Origin: Nonomuraea typhae
GTDB lineage: Bacteria > Actinomycetota > Actinomycetes > Streptosporangiales > Streptosporangiaceae
Assembly: GCF_009760925.1 (NCBI RefSeq)
Contig: NZ_VRLV01000001.1
Span: 1,116,001 to 1,180,000, forward strand
Length of the DNA: 64,000 bases
Direction of reading: 5' to 3'
Of the stretch, positions 38,346-46,888 are shown in pieces; within the stretch, counting starts at the first letter, position 1, and every line of letters starts with the position of its first letter. A model generated the notes under the pieces. That model was given only the letters and a program-made list of their open reading frames with translations. It was not told the DNA's origin and did not search any database. The translations under genes and the position numbers were made by a program.

Positions 38346-39278
38346 TTGTCCATCCACGAGCACCTGACAACCTTCCACGGCCTGCCCGTCCACATGGCGG
38401 GCGATCCCGGCGCGCCGCCGTCCGATCAGGCCGCCTGGGGGATCTCGACCGACTCCCTCGAGGAGTCGGGGCAGAGCTTCCAGAGCGCCCTGGACGAGAC
38501 TCTGTCCCAGCTCGATCCCGGCCGGGTCAAGGCGCTCGTGATCGGCTACTGGGGGCCCGGATGGGAGAACGTGACCTCCAGCGTGGCCGTCTCGGCGCTG
38601 ACCGGCGCCGCCTCGCGGCTGACCGCGCTGGAGGCGATCTTCCTCGGTGACATCACCAGCGAGGAGTCCGAGATCTCCTGGATCGAGCACGGCGACATCA
38701 CGCCGCTGCTGGAGTCCTTCCCGCGGCTGCGGCGGCTGGAGGTGCGCGGAGGCTCCGGGCTGGTGCTGCGGCCGGTCCGGCATGCGGCGCTGGAGGTGCT
38801 GCGCTTCGAGTCCGGCGGGCTGCCCGGCCGCGTCGTGCGGGCCGTCGGGGAGAGCGACCTCCCCGTGCTGCGCACCCTGGAGATGTGGCTCGGCGAGGAG
38901 AACTACGGCGGCGATTCCCGGCCCGAGGACTGGGCGGGCGTCCTGGCCGGGGCCGGGCTGCCCGCGCTGGTCGAGCTCGGGCTGCAGGACAGCCAGATCC
39001 AGGACGACGTGGCCGCCGCCGTGGCGGCCGCGCCGATCGTGGCCCGGCTGGAGGAGCTCAACCTGTCCATGGGCATCCTCACCGACGCCGGCGCCGAGGC
39101 GCTGCTGTCCGGGCAGCCGCTCACCCACCTGCGCAGGCTCGACCTGAGCCACCACTACGTCTCCGAGGCCATGCGCAAGCGCCTCCTCGCCGCCCTCGAC
39201 GGCGTCGAGGTCGATCTCGGCGATCCGCAGGACGGGGACGACGATGACGGCTGGCGGTACATCGCGGTGTCGGAGTGA
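38346..39278 (+). CDS. STM4015-family leucine-rich repeat protein
   Basis: A 310-residue leucine-rich repeat protein without enzyme motifs: repeats such as LPVLRTLEMWLGEENYGG, LPALVELGLQDSQIQDD, LEELNLSMGILTDAGAEALL and LTHLRRLDLSHHYVSEAM. The N-terminus (HEHLTTFHGLPV) is characteristic of the STM4015 family. It begins the five-gene operon. TTG start, supported by GAGGAG 6 nt upstream. Likely a recognition or scaffold subunit; inference only. Confidence 0.85.
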   Translation: MSIHEHLTTFHGLPVHMAGDPGAPPSDQAAWGISTDSLEESGQSFQSALDETLSQLDPGRVKALVIGYWGPGWENVTSSVAVSALTGAASRLTALEAIFLGDITSEESEISWIEHGDITPLLESFPRLRRLEVRGGSGLVLRPVRHAALEVLRFESGGLPGRVVRAVGESDLPVLRTLEMWLGEENYGGDSRPEDWAGVLAGAGLPALVELGLQDSQIQDDVAAAVAAAPIVARLEELNLSMGILTDAGAEALLSGQPLTHLRRLDLSHHYVSEAMRKRLLAALDGVEVDLGDPQDGDDDDGWRYIAVSE

Positions 39279-40414
39279 CGCCGGTGGTCGTGGTCGGCGT
39301 GCCGGGGGATCGGCGGGTGCGGCTGTTCGGCGAGGCGCTGGTCCGGGGCGGCCACGCCGTACCCCTGGTGGTGGCGTGGCGGCAGGTCCTGACCGAGGGG
39401 ATGCCGCCGCTGCCCCCGGGCGCGCTCGTGCGCGTCGAGTCGCCGGGCGAGGACGCCGCGACCGGCGCGCTGCTGCGCGGTCCCGGCCCGGCCACGCGGG
39501 CCGGGGGCGGGCGGGCCTGGTACCTCGCCTTCCTCCGGGCCCTCGACACGGTACGGCGGGCGGTCGCGGCCACCCCCGGGGCCCGGCTGCTGGGGGACGT
39601 GGCGGAGATCGGGGTGCTGTTCGACAAGCGGCGCTGCCACGCGCTCCTGGCCGGGGCCGGGGTGCCCGTTCCCCCCGCCCTGCCGGGGCCCGTGGGCGGC
39701 TACGCCGATCTGCGGGCCGGGATGGCCGCCGCCGGGTGGAACCGCGTGTTCGTCAAGCCCGCCCACGGGTCCTCGGCCTCCGGGGTGCTCGCCTTCCAGG
39801 CGGCGGGGGCGCGGCTCAAGGCGACCACGTCCGTGGAGCTCGACTCCTCCGGGGAACTGCACAACTCGCTGCGGGTGCGCTCCTACACCGGTGAGCGGGA
39901 GGTCGCGGCCATCGTGGACGCGCTGGCCCCCGAGGGGCTGCACGTGGAGCGGTGGTTCCCCAAGGCGTCCCTGGGCGGGCGGGTGGTCGATCTACGGGTC
40001 GTGGTGGTGGGCGGGGTGCCCACCCATGCCGTCGTCCGGTCCTCGGCGAGCCCGATGACGAACCTGCACCTCGGCGGCTCACGCGGCGACCTGGCCGCGT
40101 TCCGCGCCGCGCTGGGCCCGGAGCGCTGGGCGCGGGCGCTGCGCGTGTGCGCCCGCGCGGCCGCGTGCTTTCCCGCCGCCCCCTCCGTCGGAGTCGACCT
40201 CATGGCCGGGAGCGACCTGCGCCGCTTCGCCGTCGCCGAGGTCAACGCCTTCGGCGACCTGCTCCCCGGGCTGACCGGCCTGCCCGGCAGCGGTGCCGAG
40301 GGCCTGGACACCTACGACGCGCAGGTGGCCCGCTTGCCTGGCGCGGAGGTCTCGTGCTCTCCGAATGCGGAGGTCGTGTGCTCTCCGGGTGCGGAGGTCA
40401 TGTGCGGGACATGA
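39275..40414 (+). CDS. STM4014-family ATP-grasp-like protein
   Basis: A 379-residue protein with ATP-grasp features: an N-terminal VVVVGVPGDRRV Rossmann-like part, DKRRCHALLAGAGVPVPP before the central ATP-binding region, the Lys in RVFVKPAHGSSASGV, VERWFPKA, and metal-ligand-like VDLMAGSD and AEVNAFGDLLPG. It could ligate an amine or amino acid to a carboxylate. GTGA overlap with the LRR gene. The last 24 codons are three imperfect 8-residue repeats (GAEVSCSP-like). Confidence 0.82.
   Translation: MTPVVVVGVPGDRRVRLFGEALVRGGHAVPLVVAWRQVLTEGMPPLPPGALVRVESPGEDAATGALLRGPGPATRAGGGRAWYLAFLRALDTVRRAVAATPGARLLGDVAEIGVLFDKRRCHALLAGAGVPVPPALPGPVGGYADLRAGMAAAGWNRVFVKPAHGSSASGVLAFQAAGARLKATTSVELDSSGELHNSLRVRSYTGEREVAAIVDALAPEGLHVERWFPKASLGGRVVDLRVVVVGGVPTHAVVRSSASPMTNLHLGGSRGDLAAFRAALGPERWARALRVCARAAACFPAAPSVGVDLMAGSDLRRFAVAEVNAFGDLLPGLTGLPGSGAEGLDTYDAQVARLPGAEVSCSPNAEVVCSPGAEVMCGT
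40343..40414 (+). repeat. three 24-nt tandem repeats at the end of the STM4014 gene
   Basis: Units at 40343-40366, 40367-40390 and 40391-40414 each begin GCGGAGGTC. The first two differ at a few bases; the third has diverged after position 12 and contains the ATG of the next gene. They encode the C-terminal AEVxCSPx repeats. Confidence 0.85.
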
Positions 40415-41211
40415 ACGCCGTCATCGGCACCCACGACCTGCTGCTCGTCACGCTCGACACCCTGCGCTACGACGTCGCCGAACGCCTGCTGGCCGACGGC
40501 CGCCTGCCCACGCTGGCCCGGTTCCTGCCCGGCGGCGTCTGGGAACGCCGGCACACCCCGGGCAGCTTCACCTACGCCGCCCACGCCGCGATGCTGGCCG
40601 GGTTCCTGCCCACCCCGGCCGCGCCAGGGCCGCACCCGAGGCTGTTCGCCGCCGACTTCCCCGGCAGCGAGACCACCGCCCCCGGCACCTGGCGGTTCGC
40701 CGCCGCCGACCTGCCCACCGGCCTCGCCCGGGCCGGGTACCACACCGTGTGCGTGGGCGGTGTCGGCTTCTTCAACAAGCTCACCCCGCTGGGTACGGCG
40801 CTGCCGTCGTTGTTCGCCGAGTCCCACTGGGAACCCGGCTTCGGCGTCACCGCCCCCGACTCCTTCGAACGGCAGATCGCCTGCGCCCGCGGGGCCGTGG
40901 CCGCCCGGCAGGAGCCCGTCTTCCTCCTGGTCAACGTCTCCGCCCTCCACCAGCCCAACCACTTCTACCTGCCCGGCCGCTCGGGCCACGACGGCTTGGA
41001 CAGCCACGCCGCCGCCCTCGCCTACGTGGACCGGCACATCGGCGAACTGTTCGCCCTGATGAGCGAGCGCCGCCCGTGCCTGGCCATCGTCTGCTCCGAC
41101 CACGGCACCGCCTACGGGGAAGACGGCCACACCGGCCACCGCATCGGCCACGAGGTCGTCTGGACCGTGCCCTACGCCGAGTTCGTGATCCCGAAGGGAG
41201 GCCGGCCGTGA
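40411..41211 (+). CDS. STM4013/SEN3800-family sulfatase-fold hydrolase
   Basis: A 266-residue member of the alkaline phosphatase/sulfatase superfamily: the metal-binding start LLLVTLDTLRYDV, SFTYAAHAAMLAGFLP in the nucleophile region, and CSDHGTAYGEDGHTGH with further metal-ligand Asp/His. It is shorter than true sulfatases. The expected substrate is a phospho- or sulfo-ester, unknown. ATG overlaps the STM4014 stop. Confidence 0.85.
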   Translation: MNAVIGTHDLLLVTLDTLRYDVAERLLADGRLPTLARFLPGGVWERRHTPGSFTYAAHAAMLAGFLPTPAAPGPHPRLFAADFPGSETTAPGTWRFAAADLPTGLARAGYHTVCVGGVGFFNKLTPLGTALPSLFAESHWEPGFGVTAPDSFERQIACARGAVAARQEPVFLLVNVSALHQPNHFYLPGRSGHDGLDSHAAALAYVDRHIGELFALMSERRPCLAIVCSDHGTAYGEDGHTGHRIGHEVVWTVPYAEFVIPKGGRP

Positions 41212-42533
41212 CCGCCGGGCCGTACCAGGGCAAGATGGCCGAGCGCCCGGATGAGGCTCGCGCGGCCGGGCCCTACCAGGGCTACGTCTACGCCTACCCG
41301 CACAAGACGGCCTACCGGCCGCTCGAGGACCGCCCCGCGCTCACCGACGTGTGGTCAGGCGAGCGCACCGGCGCGCTCTTCCTCTACCTCCACATCCCGT
41401 TCTGCGAGATGCGCTGCGGTTTCTGCAACCTGTTCACCCGCACCGGCGCGCCGGAGGAACTCGTCACCGCCTACCTCGACGCCCTGGCCCGCCAGGCCGC
41501 CGCCGCCCGCGAGGCCGTGCCCGGGGCCCGCTTCGCCGCCGCGGCCATCGGCGGCGGCACCCCCACCTACCTGGCGCCCGCCGAGCTGGAACGCCTCTTC
41601 GACCTCGCCGGCCTGCCGCCCGGCATCCCCATCGGCATCGAAACCTCCCCGGCCACCGCCACGCCCGGCCGCCTCGCCGTACTGCGGGAGCGGGGGGTGA
41701 GCCGGATCTCGATCGGGGTGCAGAGCTTCATCGACGCCGAAGCCCGCGCCGCGGTGCGTCCCCAGCGCCGCGCCGAGGTGGAGGCCGCCCTCGCCGCCAT
41801 CCGCGACACCACGACCGCCGCGCTCAACATCGACCTGATCTACGGCATCGACGGCCAGGACGCCGCCTCCTGGCGGTACTCCCTCGACGCCGCCCTGGCC
41901 TGGCGGCCCGAGGAGCTCTACCTCTACCCGCTGTACGTCCGGCCGCTGACCGGCCTCGGCCTGCGCGGCCGCGACCGGGACTGGGACGATCAGCGCCTGA
42001 CCCTGTACCGCCAGGGCCGCGACCACCTGCTGGCCGCCGGGTACGAGCAGGTTTCCATGCGCATGTTCCGCCTGCCGGGGACCGGCGCCGGGACCGAGTA
42101 CCACTGCCAGCGCGACGGCATGCTGGGCCTCGGCTGCGGCGCCCGCTCCTACACCCGTGACCTGCACTACTCCTTCGAGTACGCCGTGGGCGTGCGCCAT
42201 GTGCGGGCGATCATCGACGAGTACGTCGCCACCGCCGACTTCACCCGGGCCAACGTCGGCTTCCGCCTCGACGACGGCGAGCGGCGCCGCCGCCACCTGC
42301 TGCAGTCGCTCCTGCAGGCCGAAGGGCTCGACCGCGCGCTGTACAAGGAGAGCTTCGGCGCCGACGTGCTCGACGACTTCGACCTGTACGGCATGGCCGC
42401 CGCCGGCTGGCTCGAGGACGACGCCGAGACGGTCCGCCTCACCCCGGAGGGCCTGGCCCACTCCGACGCCATCGGGCCCGCGTTGTTCTCCGGCCGGGTC
42501 AGGGAGCTGATGGACGCCTATGACCACCGCTGA
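41208..42533 (+). CDS. STM4012-family radical SAM enzyme (HemN/HemW-like)
   Basis: A 441-residue radical SAM protein. The [4Fe-4S] motif is FCEMRCGFC (Cys66, Cys70, Cys73), followed by the GGGTPTYL segment, the SAM-binding IGIETSPAT, and VSRISIGVQSF, all as in coproporphyrinogen-dehydrogenase-like HemN/HemW proteins. The N-terminal 25 residues contain a repeated AGPYQG. GTG start overlaps the preceding stop; GGGAGG is 6 nt upstream. Confidence 0.9.
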   Translation: MTAGPYQGKMAERPDEARAAGPYQGYVYAYPHKTAYRPLEDRPALTDVWSGERTGALFLYLHIPFCEMRCGFCNLFTRTGAPEELVTAYLDALARQAAAAREAVPGARFAAAAIGGGTPTYLAPAELERLFDLAGLPPGIPIGIETSPATATPGRLAVLRERGVSRISIGVQSFIDAEARAAVRPQRRAEVEAALAAIRDTTTAALNIDLIYGIDGQDAASWRYSLDAALAWRPEELYLYPLYVRPLTGLGLRGRDRDWDDQRLTLYRQGRDHLLAAGYEQVSMRMFRLPGTGAGTEYHCQRDGMLGLGCGARSYTRDLHYSFEYAVGVRHVRAIIDEYVATADFTRANVGFRLDDGERRRRHLLQSLLQAEGLDRALYKESFGADVLDDFDLYGMAAAGWLEDDAETVRLTPEGLAHSDAIGPALFSGRVRELMDAYDHR

Positions 42534-43386
42534 CCACCTCACCATCCTGTACCGGGGGCCGCTGGCCAGCTGCGACTACGACTGCCCGTACTGCCCGTTC
42601 GCCAAGCGCCGCGACACGCCCGCGCAGTTGCGGGCCGACCGCGCGGCGCTGGGACGGTTCACCGCGTGGGCCGCGTCGGCGGGCAGAGAGGTGTCGGTGT
42701 TGTTCACGCCCTGGGGTGAAGGGCTGGTCCGGTCGTGGTACCGGGAGGCGATGGTCGAGCTGAGTCACCTGGACCACGTGCGCCGGGTCGCCATCCAGAC
42801 GAACCTGAGCGGCCGGACCACGTGGCTGGCCGGGGCGGACCTGTCGAAGCTCGCCTTGTGGGCGACCTACCATCCGGGCCAGGTGTCCGCTGACCGCTTC
42901 ATCGCGAAATCTCACGACTTGGCGGGGCAAGGAGTGCGTTTCAGCGTAGGCGTGGTCGGCCTCCCCGAGCACCTGCCCGCCGCCCGCCACCTGCGCACCG
43001 CTCTGCCCCCGTCGACCTACCTCTGGATCAACGCCGCCGAGGGCCACACCTACACCGATGACGAGGCCGCCGAATGGACCGCCCTCGACCCCCTGTTTCC
43101 CCTGAGCCGCCATCCCCACCGCAGCCTCGGCCTGGCCTGCCGTACCGGAGACACCGTGATCTCGGTGGACGGCGACGGCGAGGTACGGCGCTGCCACTTC
43201 GTCCCCCGGCGCCTGGGCAACCTCTACGACGGCACCGCCCTGGCCGCCCTCCGCCCGCGCACCTGCCCGCTGGAGACGTGCGACTGCCACATCGGCTACG
43301 TGCATCTGGAGCCGCTGGGCCTGTACGACACCTTCGCCGGCGGCATCCTGGAACGCATCCCCGCCACCTGGCCTCCCACGACCTAA
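42520..43386 (+). CDS. STM4011-family radical SAM enzyme
   Basis: A 288-residue radical SAM protein with SCDYDCPYC (Cys18, Cys22, Cys25) and a C-terminal cysteine cluster (RRCHFVP, CPLETCDCHIG) suggesting an auxiliary iron-sulfur cluster, as in SPASM-like proteins. It overlaps the STM4012 gene by 14 nt and closes the operon. Two radical SAM enzymes in one operon imply a radical modification of a substrate that is not encoded nearby. Confidence 0.9.
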   Translation: MTTADHLTILYRGPLASCDYDCPYCPFAKRRDTPAQLRADRAALGRFTAWAASAGREVSVLFTPWGEGLVRSWYREAMVELSHLDHVRRVAIQTNLSGRTTWLAGADLSKLALWATYHPGQVSADRFIAKSHDLAGQGVRFSVGVVGLPEHLPAARHLRTALPPSTYLWINAAEGHTYTDDEAAEWTALDPLFPLSRHPHRSLGLACRTGDTVISVDGDGEVRRCHFVPRRLGNLYDGTALAALRPRTCPLETCDCHIGYVHLEPLGLYDTFAGGILERIPATWPPTT

Positions 43387-43777: not shown

Positions 43778-45193
43778 TCAGGTCTCCTGGTCGGGCTGGT
43801 AGGTCTCCTCGGTGAGGCCGAAGGTCCAGGCGACCCCTTGGCGGGCGGTCTGAACCCACGGCGGGACCCGGAGGAAGTACGTGCGGCTCGTGCCGTCGGG
43901 CTCCGGGGTGGCGTTGATGACCTCCACGGTGACGATCGGCTCATCGTCGGGCATGTCCACCCTCCACAGCACCCCGGTCGCGTCGCGATGTGTCGGCCGT
44001 GCGCCCGATTCGGCCAGATAGCGGTCGATGCCGTAGTGCTCGACCATGGCGCGCCTGAGCTCGGCGTTGCGCTCGCTCGCGATCCGCTTCGCGTCCAGCC
44101 CGGTCATCGTCTCCCCGAACCAGGACGGCACCGGCATCCCGTGCCAGGCATGCAGCGCGAAGCCGTCGGGGTAGGCCATGGCCGGGCCGTCCGCACGGTG
44201 CAGGCGGCCCAGGTCGTCGCGGTGCAGGCACACGGGGCGCTCCGACATCAGCGCCACCCGCTCGAACGGCCACCACCACCCAGCCGCCCTCGCCACCTGG
44301 GCCACCGCCTCCAGCGCCACCGCCTCCCCGCCCCCGCGCGGCACCCGGCCCACGGCCGAAGCCCGGCCCTCGCCCGGATCCCACGTGGTCGTGGCGGTCA
44401 GCTGCTCGAGGCCGTCGAATGTGGACAGCCACGCGGCCTCGTGCTGGCCCAGGACGGCGTCGAGAGTGGCCTGGCGCAGCAACCTCTCGGCCTCCTCGAC
44501 CGCCTCGTCGGTGGGCTGCTCCCCTCGGCCGACTCCGGTTCCGCCCGTCAGCTGCCCGGCCGCCCCTGGACCCGGCTGCCCGGCTCCGCCTGGCCTCTGC
44601 CCGGCGGCGCTCGGACCCGGTTGCCCGGCCACCGCGACGGTCGGATCCGCCCCGGTGACCGCTACCCCGGCGTCCGGGACGCCGGCGTCCCGGACGCCGG
44701 GGGCGGCCTGGTCGCCGATGGCGGTGCGGAGTTGCGTGGTGAGCCGGTTGACGTCCGGCCAGAGGTGGCCTCCGGTCAGCGCCCATACGCGGGACCATGC
44801 GGCGGGCCCCAGTGCCGCCGCTGCCTTGGCGCGGGCCGCTTCCCAGGGCCGGGTCCGGACGAGGTCGCGGACCGGGCGGCCGGGCGTGTGGACGTCGGTG
44901 GTGGTCAGGCGGGTCAGGATCTCGGTGACTAGGGCGTTCAGGCCGGCGGCGGTCAGGGTGGCGACGGCCTCGGCGCCTCCCGACAGGACGGCGGCGGCGA
45001 CGGCGGCGCGGGCGGGGGAGCCGAACCAGAGGATGCGCTCGGGTCCGGGAAGGCCGGCGGCCCGGTAGGCGGCGCGGACCGCGGACTCGGCCTCCGCGCG
45101 GGCGGCCGGGCCGGTGGCGAAGGCGGTGGTCTCCCAGGCGGAGGCGGCCCGGACCAGGGCGGCCTCGGCGTCGAGGGACAGGATGTCGGTCAT
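43778..45193 (-). CDS. DUF6745-like protein
   Basis: A 471-residue soluble protein. An Ala-rich helical N-terminal half is joined by a Pro/Gly-rich segment (about 175-230) to a C-terminal part with VCLHRDDLGRLHRADGPAMA, YPDGFALHAWHGMPVP, and a closing EVINATPEPDGTSRTYFLRV. This is the pattern I associate with DUF6745, a family of unknown function. Start at 45193 chosen from GGAG about 10 nt upstream. It follows the 109-residue protein gene by 22 nt, in a likely operon. Confidence 0.75.
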   Translation of the reverse strand: MTDILSLDAEAALVRAASAWETTAFATGPAARAEAESAVRAAYRAAGLPGPERILWFGSPARAAVAAAVLSGGAEAVATLTAAGLNALVTEILTRLTTTDVHTPGRPVRDLVRTRPWEAARAKAAAALGPAAWSRVWALTGGHLWPDVNRLTTQLRTAIGDQAAPGVRDAGVPDAGVAVTGADPTVAVAGQPGPSAAGQRPGGAGQPGPGAAGQLTGGTGVGRGEQPTDEAVEEAERLLRQATLDAVLGQHEAAWLSTFDGLEQLTATTTWDPGEGRASAVGRVPRGGGEAVALEAVAQVARAAGWWWPFERVALMSERPVCLHRDDLGRLHRADGPAMAYPDGFALHAWHGMPVPSWFGETMTGLDAKRIASERNAELRRAMVEHYGIDRYLAESGARPTHRDATGVLWRVDMPDDEPIVTVEVINATPEPDGTSRTYFLRVPPWVQTARQGVAWTFGLTEETYQPDQET

Positions 45194-45215
45194 GGAAGGG
45201 GGGCTCCGGCGATGC

Positions 45216-45545
45216 TCAGTCGGCGACGTACTGGAAGGAACGGACGGCTCCGGGAACGTACTCACGCTGCCTGACCACCTGGAACCAGCCCTTGGGCAGC
45301 GCGATGGCGGAGTGTTCCTCGTGCACGAGGCGGCCGCCGGACGGCAGGTGGAGGAAGCCGCCGCCGTCGCGCTCGAGCACGAGCGTGCCCGGGCCGGGGA
45401 TGGCGTGCGCGTGCCCCGTGGCCTCGCCCAGCGCCAGCACCAGCCGCCCCCGCGCGTCGCGAGCCTCCGGCGGCGTCGATCGCACGTGCTCCGGCACCGA
45501 GTCCTCGGCCACCGGCAAGATCAGGATGTCACCCTGGCGGAACAT
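45216..45545 (-). CDS. small conserved protein with GHAHAI motif
   Basis: A 109-residue beta-rich protein: MFRQGDILILPV, VLALGEATGHAHAI, HEEHSAIALPKG, and VVRQREY. The clustered histidines (HAH and HEEH) suggest a small cupin-like metal site. I recall this protein as a frequent partner of DUF6745 proteins, but no function is known. GAGGAGG lies 5 nt before the ATG, and a palindrome is upstream. Confidence 0.75.
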   Translation of the reverse strand: MFRQGDILILPVAEDSVPEHVRSTPPEARDARGRLVLALGEATGHAHAIPGPGTLVLERDGGGFLHLPSGGRLVHEEHSAIALPKGWFQVVRQREYVPGAVRSFQYVAD

Positions 45546-45634: not shown

Positions 45635-46219
45635 CTAGGCGGAGCCCAGCGCCCTCAGCACGAAGCCGGACACGAGCTTCTCCGCCTCGTCCAGGGTCAG
45701 CGCCCCCGACAGCAGCGGCACCCGCTCGGCCCCGATCACCGCCAGGATCATCCGCGCGGTCGCCGCCACGTCGCCGACCTGGAAGGCCCGGCTGTCCAGG
45801 ATCTCCTCCAGCACCCGCTGCATCGGCGCCACGTGCTCGGCCAGCTGCTGGTAGGCGTCGGGCCCGAGGGTCGCGCTCAGATCGGCGGCGCCGGGATGCG
45901 GGTGGGCGAGCAGCCCGGCGAGCTGCAGCCGGATGAAGGCCCGCAGCCGGTCGGCGGGCGAGGCGTCCTCGGGCAGCTCACGCTCGTAGCTGTCCAGGAA
46001 GTACTGCGTGACCCGCTCCGTGAACGCCAGCAGCAGCGCCGCCTTGTCCGGATAGTAGTTGTACAGCACGGTACGGGTGATCCCCGCCTCGCCGGCCACG
46101 TCCGTCATCGAGATGGCGTCGATTCCCTGCACCCTGGAGAGACGAGAAACCGCCTGCAGAATGCGGTCCTGCGTCTGGGCGCGGTGTTCACCGATCGTCG
46201 CGGCGGATATCCGGGGCAT
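45635..46219 (-). CDS. TetR-family regulator
   Basis: A 194-residue TetR repressor. The HTH is in SMTDVAGEAGITRTVLYNYY followed by PDKAALL (about residues 37-63); the C-terminal ligand-binding helices show no known signature. It starts 27 nt downstream of the heme oxygenase gene in the same direction and likely controls it through GACACWGTGTC sites. Its ligand may be heme or biliverdin; inference. Confidence 0.88.
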   Translation of the reverse strand: MPRISAATIGEHRAQTQDRILQAVSRLSRVQGIDAISMTDVAGEAGITRTVLYNYYPDKAALLLAFTERVTQYFLDSYERELPEDASPADRLRAFIRLQLAGLLAHPHPGAADLSATLGPDAYQQLAEHVAPMQRVLEEILDSRAFQVGDVAATARMILAVIGAERVPLLSGALTLDEAEKLVSGFVLRALGSA

Positions 46220-46246
46220 AAGCTCATGTTAGGCGTACGGCGCGGC

Positions 46247-46888
46247 CTAGGCCGCCGCCTTGACCGAGTGAAGTAGCTCGGCGAGAACCTCGGTGTTGAG
46301 CTGGTACGCCAGCTTCACCTCGCGGATGATCCGCTGCTGCTCGCGCTCGTCCAGGTCAAGGGCGTCCAGCCGAGCCCGGTACTCGTTCTTGAACCGGGGC
46401 AGGCTGCCTACCTCGTCGAAGATGTAGAAGTCGACGCCGCCGTCCCTGCCGTACCCGTAGATCTTCTGCAGTTCCATCCGGATGAACTGGCCGCCGGAAA
46501 GGTCGCCCATGTACCGGGTGTAGTGGTGGGCGATGTACCCGCCCGGCCAGGAGGCGACCTGGTTGATCCGGGCCACGAGCGTCTGGGTGGCCATCGACGG
46601 TCCGATTCGCGCCCGCCAGTTACGCCCGTAAACGGTGTGCAGGTCGCGCTCGAGCGCCTCCTGCCGGTAGAGCTCGGGGAAGACGAACCGCCCCGCGACC
46701 GGGTGCCCGGCCAGTGCCTTGGACGCCCCGTCGAGGGCCAGGTAGGCGAAGTAGTGCTGGGCGACCATCTCGCCGTACTCCTCCGTGCTCAGGCGCCCGC
46801 CCATGAGTTCCTTGAGGTAACTCTCGTCCTCGGCCGACTCGTGGTCGGCCCAGGTGGCGGTCTTCAGGATCTCGGAGAACGACGTCAC
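46247..46888 (-). CDS. hmuO: heme oxygenase (biliverdin-producing)
   Basis: A 213-residue HmuO-type heme oxygenase that opens heme to biliverdin, CO and iron. The proximal His is in WADHESAED (His16), and the distal helix is HHYTRYMGDLSGGQFI with the Gly-rich kink. The GTG start has GGGGTGAG upstream. It is the first gene of a two-gene unit with the TetR regulator, whose operators frame the promoter. Confidence 0.93.
   Translation of the reverse strand: MTSFSEILKTATWADHESAEDESYLKELMGGRLSTEEYGEMVAQHYFAYLALDGASKALAGHPVAGRFVFPELYRQEALERDLHTVYGRNWRARIGPSMATQTLVARINQVASWPGGYIAHHYTRYMGDLSGGQFIRMELQKIYGYGRDGGVDFYIFDEVGSLPRFKNEYRARLDALDLDEREQQRIIREVKLAYQLNTEVLAELLHSVKAAA

Follow-up and report, generated by a model that had tools for sequence, protein, structure and literature searches.

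A five-gene STM4015-STM4011 operon of Nonomuraea typhae and the conserved terminal glutamate of its leucine-rich repeat protein, a possible carrier of an enzyme-built modification

The DNA analyzed was a 64,000-nucleotide stretch (the window) of the 11.39 Mb genome of Nonomuraea typhae (NCBI RefSeq assembly GCF_009760925.1, contig NZ_VRLV01000001.1, positions 1,116,001 to 1,180,000 of the forward strand), in which genes of the families STM4015, STM4014, STM4013, STM4012 and STM4011 lie in that order at 38346-43386, all intact and in one orientation (Table 1). An initial annotation, made from the letters of the window, had described a complete operon of five overlapping genes at this site, and the five genes were confirmed there, each over the curated NCBIfam cut-off of its STM family; domains were judged by Pfam cut-offs. 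Neighboring genes overlap by 4, 4, 4 and 14 bases if STM4012 is taken from its GTG codon; from its ATG (41235), the overlap with the previous gene turns into a gap of 23 bases. STM4015 starts at a TTG codon with GAGGAG upstream, and its closest listed relative, a 92% identical protein that is also from Nonomuraea typhae (P0001), begins at the same residue. A scan for promoters and terminators found nothing. Two genes that the initial annotation overlooked, for a DUF6745 protein and a 109-residue protein (43778-45545), lie directly downstream of the operon and are convergent to it. The subject of this report is the leucine-rich repeat (LRR) protein STM4015, for which the chances appear about even that the four enzyme homologues build a modification on its C-terminal tail, using it as substrate or carrier.

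Table 1. Features of the operon and of the adjoining partner genes in the window.
Feature	Coordinates	Strand	Support
STM4015 family protein, LRR body followed by acidic linker and C-terminal tail; probable substrate or carrier	38346..39278	+	NF038076, 347.7 bits (cut-off 275)
STM4015 tail WRYIAVSE, Glu final before stop	39252..39275	+	Tail conservation in 117 ORFs
STM4014 ATP-grasp protein with a predicted fold closest to those of ArgX/LysX and RimK; probable ligase	39275..40414	+	NCBIfam, 408.7 bits (cut-off 175)
STM4013 alkaline-phosphatase-superfamily hydrolase, predicted phosphoesterase	40411..41211	+	NF038075, 401.8 bits (cut-off 250); PF01663, 43.4 bits
STM4012 HemN-like radical SAM enzyme	41208 (GTG; ATG 41235)..42533	+	NF006067, 599.7 bits (cut-off 380); PF04055, 60.2 bits
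STM4011 radical SAM enzyme, partial SPASM/twitch-like C-terminal cysteines	42520..43386	+	NF038073, 394.4 bits (cut-off 200)
DUF6745 protein	43778..45193 (ATG 45193; in-frame GTG 45265)	-	PF20530, 318.3 bits
109-residue partner protein	45216..45545	-	Alignment A5 (19 sequences); phrog_27831, E 6.2e-11

The STM4015 tail was conserved. The loci compared included the best 80 among the matches listed when one-per-species genomes were scanned with an STM4013 alignment, more loci being in existence. In 117 STM4015 open reading frames (ORFs; 119 minus the duplicate of the window and one near-copy), the final residue was Glu in 113, Arg stood at position -6 in 107, and the endings [YF]x4E and R[YF]x4E were noted in 107 and 101, respectively. 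The corresponding counts for 440 ORFs of the six other families in the loci were none with an R[YF]x4E end and five with a terminal Glu, and among 18,215 complete ORFs scanned there were three matches to either of two tail patterns outside STM4015. Used as a DNA pattern on a class sample of 148 genomes, the strict tail occurred 16 times. Fifteen of these occurrences, spread over 8 of the 15 operon genomes, coincided with the 3' end of an STM4015 gene, and the sixteenth was in a genome without the operon (G341), while the control, i.e., the same pattern read backwards, matched once.

The tail is preceded by an acidic linker of 8-24 residues, 40% of which are acidic as opposed to 15% in the body (112 aligned ORFs), and both the length and the sequence of this linker drift among STM4015 ORFs. 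Two to four STM4015 genes were present in 22 of the 80 loci, and comparison of 47 paralogue pairs from 26 loci gave median identities of 54% for the body, 31% for the linker and 71% for the seven tail columns. Three unlinked STM4015 copies (L148, L149 and L150), all in operon genomes, retained the terminal-Glu tail, and a copy on a Calothrix plasmid (L193), with no enzymes named nearby, ended in RYCSVAE. The structure predicted for STM4015 from 43 sequences had a confidence score (pLDDT, predicted local distance difference test) of 92.6 and was nearest, among solved structures, to that of a Bacteroides fragilis protein (2ra8, template modeling score 0.83), the full-length match of which (P0241) has an N-terminal WGR domain and ends in YPMITE.

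The five families were found as a block. Each exceeded its cut-off in 15 of the 148 class genomes, the same 15 in every case, and sub-cut-off strays in genomes without the rest were noted for STM4015 in G259 (22.5 bits) and for STM4011 in G357 (48.1 bits). In a phylum sample of 246 genomes, STM4014 was over its cut-off in 6. All five families lay within the fetched stretch at 62 of the 80 loci, and 11 of the other 18 stretches were shorter than 14 kb. Ordered by stop codons, the full loci had the arrangement 15-14-13-12-11 in 46 cases, 13-12-11 facing 14-15 in 10 (8 of them Myxococcota by title) and other arrangements in 6. In 8 genomes searched from among the 11 loci without a nearby STM4014, this gene was present elsewhere in all 8. 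Thus, the locus arrangements and these separate copies indicate two modules, STM4015-STM4014 and STM4013-4012-4011. Within the first module, STM4014 came next after STM4015 among the five families in all 67 loci that had both (62 strictly, and 5 in which only a convergent STM4011 end overlapped), with a gap of at most 150 bases in 64 loci and of 209, 209 and 884 bases in the rest.

According to titles, taxonomy lines and look-ups, all five families occurred together in ten phyla, namely Actinomycetota, Pseudomonadota, Myxococcota, Chloroflexota, Acidobacteriota, Armatimonadota, Planctomycetota, Cyanobacteriota, Deinococcota and Bacillota. The earlier statements that the families extend far beyond Salmonella, belong to one pathway and may be inherited together were supported; the contrary outcome, genes found mostly apart, is at odds with the 15 of 148 class genomes shared by all five. 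An eleventh phylum, Bacteroidota, for which one Bacteroides record was checked, was represented by one broken copy on a plasmid of B. finegoldii (L191:10001-14018), where STM4015 and STM4014 were accompanied by short remnants of STM4013 and STM4012, a fusion of STM4011 to a haloacid dehalogenase (HAD) hydrolase and then a MATE transporter. An orphan STM4015 in Bacteroides had been considered as a counter-example, but the STM4015 of this one record is no orphan, given the STM4014 and STM4011-HAD genes beside it.

The ATP-grasp protein STM4014 is likely, judging from its model, to be a ligase of the LysX/ArgX/RimK type. In structure comparison the model ranked nearest to ArgX and LysX bound to LysW and to RimK, and it has the predicted LysX/ArgX fold; alignment of profiles with hhalign matched STM4014 to Escherichia coli RimK over 188 columns (E 3.4e-7), with a D(L/I)R and an (S/T)NLH segment in common. 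The 3' end of the window gene (40343-40405) consists of a 24-base unit repeated in tandem (2.6 copies, 87%), and the tail that this repeat encodes was modeled with low confidence.

For STM4013, the sulfatase fold named in the initial annotation was supported by scores over the cut-offs of both PF01663 (43.4 bits) and PF00884. The formylglycine-sulfatase motif is C/S-x-P/A-x-R; it was found neither in the window protein nor, in a form that also requires A, S or T after the motif, in any of 80 relatives, and a formylglycine sulfatase was therefore rejected. In an alignment of 46 sequences (A4), D16, T54, D207, D230 and H231 were invariant and H247 was kept in at least 90%, and STM4013 is predicted from sequence to be a phosphoesterase or phosphotransferase with Thr as the likely nucleophile. 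The radical S-adenosylmethionine (SAM) enzyme STM4012 contains C57xxxC61xxC64 (numbered from ATG 41235), cysteines that were kept in more than 97% of 77 sequences. The other radical SAM enzyme, STM4011, has a CxxxCxxC motif (C18, C22 and C25) and, as the initial annotation had remarked of its C-terminus, five further cysteines (C207-x12-G220-x4-C225, then C249-x4-C254-x-C256), all of them invariant in 35 of 35 sequences (alignment A6). Compared with the SPASM cysteine pattern, the first half was present and the second half was different, and the SPASM Pfam score (15.7) was below its cut-off of 21.5. A comparison of the STM4011 profile with the PDB gave no chain up to E 0.1.

From the families, their co-occurrence, the C-terminal tail and the STM4015-STM4014 pairing, all of which were observed directly, we infer the following chemistry. 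STM4014 would use ATP to activate a carboxylate of the last Glu of STM4015 and would join an amine or amino acid to it, by analogy with the action of LysX on LysW and of RimK on ribosomal protein S6. STM4011 and STM4012 would then probably remodel the added group or the adjacent Tyr/Phe by radical chemistry, and STM4013, together with a HAD phosphatase in some lineages, would probably take off a phosphoester group. The end product could either be retained as a protein modification or be freed by an unlinked protease, and the DUF6745 protein and the small protein would act as accessories at about 40% of the loci. Radical chemistry and ATP-dependent ligation, as first proposed for the operon, are thus plausible, but the small molecule or peptide that had been suggested as the substrate would give way to the STM4015 tail. 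Likewise, the LRR protein, which had been assigned to recognition, is more likely the substrate or carrier, given its near-invariant C-terminal Glu, the presence in 22 of the 80 loci of more than one copy for a single set of enzymes, the position of its gene before the ATP-grasp gene and the nearest folds predicted for the ATP-grasp protein, most of which belong to ligases with protein C-termini as their targets. If the enzymes read the tail more than the body, this would explain why more than one STM4015 copy is served by a single set of them.

Parts of this scheme have counterparts in known systems. As in the amino-group carrier protein pathway of LysW and its ligases LysX and ArgX, an acidic stretch and a last residue that is Glu are found on a protein paired with an ATP-grasp ligase. 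In contrast with LysW, a zinc protein of about 54 residues, STM4015 is an LRR protein of about 294-310 residues (310 in the window) that has no EDWGE end, and the operon adds two radical SAM enzymes and a phosphoesterase homologue from families other than those of lysine synthesis. RimK, described as an ATP-grasp ligase that acts on a protein C-terminus (PMC10092738), resembles STM4014 as a predicted ligase of this kind, the differences being that STM4014 is paired with an LRR protein, the tail of which is conserved, and that radical SAM enzymes are added. With the radical SAM/SPASM peptide maturases STM4011 shares the CxxxCxxC motif, the CX12GX4C segment and further cysteines. These maturases serve ribosomally synthesized and post-translationally modified peptides, pyrroloquinoline quinone and mycofactocin. 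No short precursor was found here among the ORFs of at least 70 residues that were clustered, and the LRR protein would fill that role; the initial statement that no precursor peptide is visible inside the operon held for short peptides to the extent that they were covered, although the STM4015 tail can take the place of a precursor. Finally, the graspetide ligase PsnB, with its peptide substrate bound, was among the first Foldseek rows for STM4014. In graspetides, the precursor is a short peptide in which core residues recur, whereas STM4015 offers one terminal Glu.

More broadly and more tentatively, at somewhat less than even likelihood, the operon may belong to a new class of ribosomally encoded biosynthesis in at least 10 phyla. 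In such a class, a whole LRR protein would act as leader or carrier; a RimK/LysX-type ligase would lengthen its C-terminal tail (typically R-[YF]-x4-E), two radical SAM enzymes would convert that tail into a cofactor, signal or natural product, and paralogous LRR bodies would provide different addresses for the same chemistry. If the tail is modified as inferred, LRR proteins would join LysW and ribosomal protein S6 as targets of C-terminal ligation, radical SAM enzymes would gain a class of substrates borne on folded proteins, and the operon would represent protein-borne biosynthesis of a new kind. What is new here are the tail with its terminal Glu, the pairing of this tail with a ligase of the LysX/RimK type and the partners. 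The families themselves are known by name only in the open-licence literature searched, in which STM4013 and STM4015 occurred as single table entries, the neighbor STM4010 was likewise mentioned in passing, and nothing was found on DUF6745 or on carrier-protein or LRR/radical SAM/ATP-grasp combinations. The five families are still named by locus tag despite their presence in Salmonella, in many soil bacteria and in E. coli, where blastn with a query covering most of the Salmonella operon matched 154 of 5426 genomes (153 of them over at least 80% of the query). The tail makes the function testable concretely and cheaply, at one residue of one protein.

Several observations weigh against modification of the tail. 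No covalent change on STM4015 has been observed, and the motif is not uniform, as the Salmonella tail lacks both R and Y/F, the Methylobacterium tail lacks Y/F at -5, and the final Glu was missing from 4 of the 117 copies (one each in L066, L098 and L103, plus a weak hit of 55 bits in L079). The 120 relatives listed for the WGR-LRR protein of B. fragilis, which include fragments, ended in Glu in 102 cases, in [YF]x4E in 74 and in R[YF]x4E in 8, the tail often being YPMITE, whereas all of the 120 relatives listed as closest to the window protein ended in Glu and 90 of them in R[YF]x4E; these counts indicate that the feature shared most widely is the terminal Glu, followed by Tyr/Phe, R having been lost in the B. 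fragilis-type group. Tail identity was at least equal to body identity in 38 of the 47 paralogue pairs and fell to 14% in degenerate copies. The restriction of the tail to operon genomes is not independent evidence because STM4015 occurs only with the enzymes in the sample. The sequence link between STM4014 and LysX is weak (E 8e-5), biotin carboxylase outranks RimK by sequence, and glutathione synthetase, DcsG, PurK, Ddl and inositol-phosphate kinases were just 1.7 to about 4 Z units lower in structure comparison. In addition, neither a recurrent protease nor a recurrent exporter was found. The last 14 residues of the STM4015 model, without secondary structure but with a mean pLDDT of about 86, are not clearly disordered, so that the tail may lie against the LRR body instead of being free. 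Such fair confidence, as expected of a packed element, also speaks for a rival explanation in which STM4015 is an adaptor or scaffold, its tail being a docking site for the enzymes or an element packed against the LRR body, and the true substrate is a small molecule or another protein. This explanation ranks next after tail-borne modification and, although unlikely on balance, deserves weight, since LRR proteins usually bind partners and small-molecule ligases, DcsG and Ddl among them, also came near the top in the comparison with STM4014. The Glu at the very last position in 113 of 117 ORFs, however, is beyond the need of a docking segment, and the drift of the linker and the multiple copies per enzyme set likewise speak against a scaffold.

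The other explanations drew on the genes around the five. An improbable one is that the 109-residue and DUF6745 proteins form the real substrate or precursor side, with STM4015 as an aid to recognition. These two were encoded together, always adjacent and on the same strand, in all 32 of the 80 loci that had either and in 5 of the 10 plasmid regions examined (L040, L041, L044, L045 and L048), out of 15 plasmid records matched by STM4013 in tblastn. Moreover, the small protein has the invariant motifs RxGD, GExTGHxH, HxEH and QREYxP in 19 sequences, and close DUF6745 matches (E below 1e-89) were present in 7 of the 15 operon genomes and in none of the 133 others of the class sample, distant ones (E 4e-33 to 2e-23) being noted in four non-operon genomes (G235, G259, G354 and G356) and one more in the genome of the window itself. 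However, 8 of the 15 operon genomes gave no DUF6745 match, and the pair was not seen in the stretches fetched for 48 of the 80 loci (some contigs being short) or in the Salmonella, Paenibacillus, Bacteroides and E. coli regions examined. A cassette for anti-phage or stress functions of unspecified chemistry would account for the patchy occurrence (15 of 148 class genomes, 154 of 5426 E. coli genomes), the plasmid records and the matches of both partners to phage families that lack an assigned function. Against this very improbable reading stand the constant site between ompL and typA, which houses the operon in two Salmonella records and the one E. coli example examined, and the results of PADLOC, in which 6 of 7 proteins had no match and STM4012 a weak one (7e-5); an anti-phage system as such was rejected on the latter result. 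Least probable of all is a tetrapyrrole or cofactor pathway in which STM4012 would act on a porphyrin. This protein belongs by sequence to the broad HemN/HutW/HemW group, and a heme oxygenase homologue is encoded at 46247-46888, but STM4012 has its own family and scored far under the cut-offs for HemN (TIGR00538; 106.2 against 324.95), HemW (119.8 against 205.4) and HutW (130.2 against 400), and the heme oxygenase, like the other ORFs flanking the module in the window, the TetR gene included, was in none of the 40 neighbor clusters listed.

These clusters were derived from 6,679 ORFs of at least 70 residues at 87 loci. A universal sixth gene was rejected, as the widest of the 40 clusters covered 9, 8 and 6 loci. 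Judged from the sequences, the 8-locus cluster, which extended across phyla, was of the ATP-binding cassette transporter ATPase type and one 6-locus cluster was of the protein-kinase type; both are large common families. None of the clusters was taken as a partner. Most other clusters were common to Myxococcus-like or Streptomyces loci. The recurring further partner that the initial annotation had advised looking for was sought with two results, i.e., the DUF6745 and small-protein pair, which is spread over many phyla, and a homologue of HAD phosphatases, which was seen in Enterobacteria and in a single Bacteroides record. This homologue is a HAD hydrolase of the Cof type; its gene overlaps that of STM4011 in both Salmonella records and in the examined E. 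coli, and it is the fusion partner in B. finegoldii.

Some minor observations were also made. The small protein matched phage family phrog_27831 (E 6.2e-11) and DUF6745 weakly matched phrog_31813, both families being without functional annotation, and the small-protein profile had a single poor match in the PDB (E 0.76). A locus titled Comamonas sp. KCTC 72670 (L054) was flanked by gene clusters common to Myxococcus loci, and its label or assembly may be wrong. Beside the module in the window, homologues of a TetR regulator and a heme oxygenase are encoded at 45635-46888. A Kitasatospora plasmid (L047) had three STM4013 places, and a Streptomyces albidoflavus plasmid (L043:6815-10264) carried an STM4013-family hydrolase (341 bits) in a different cluster, together with a MoaA-like radical SAM protein, a dTMP-kinase-like protein, a 159-residue protein and a NUDIX protein.

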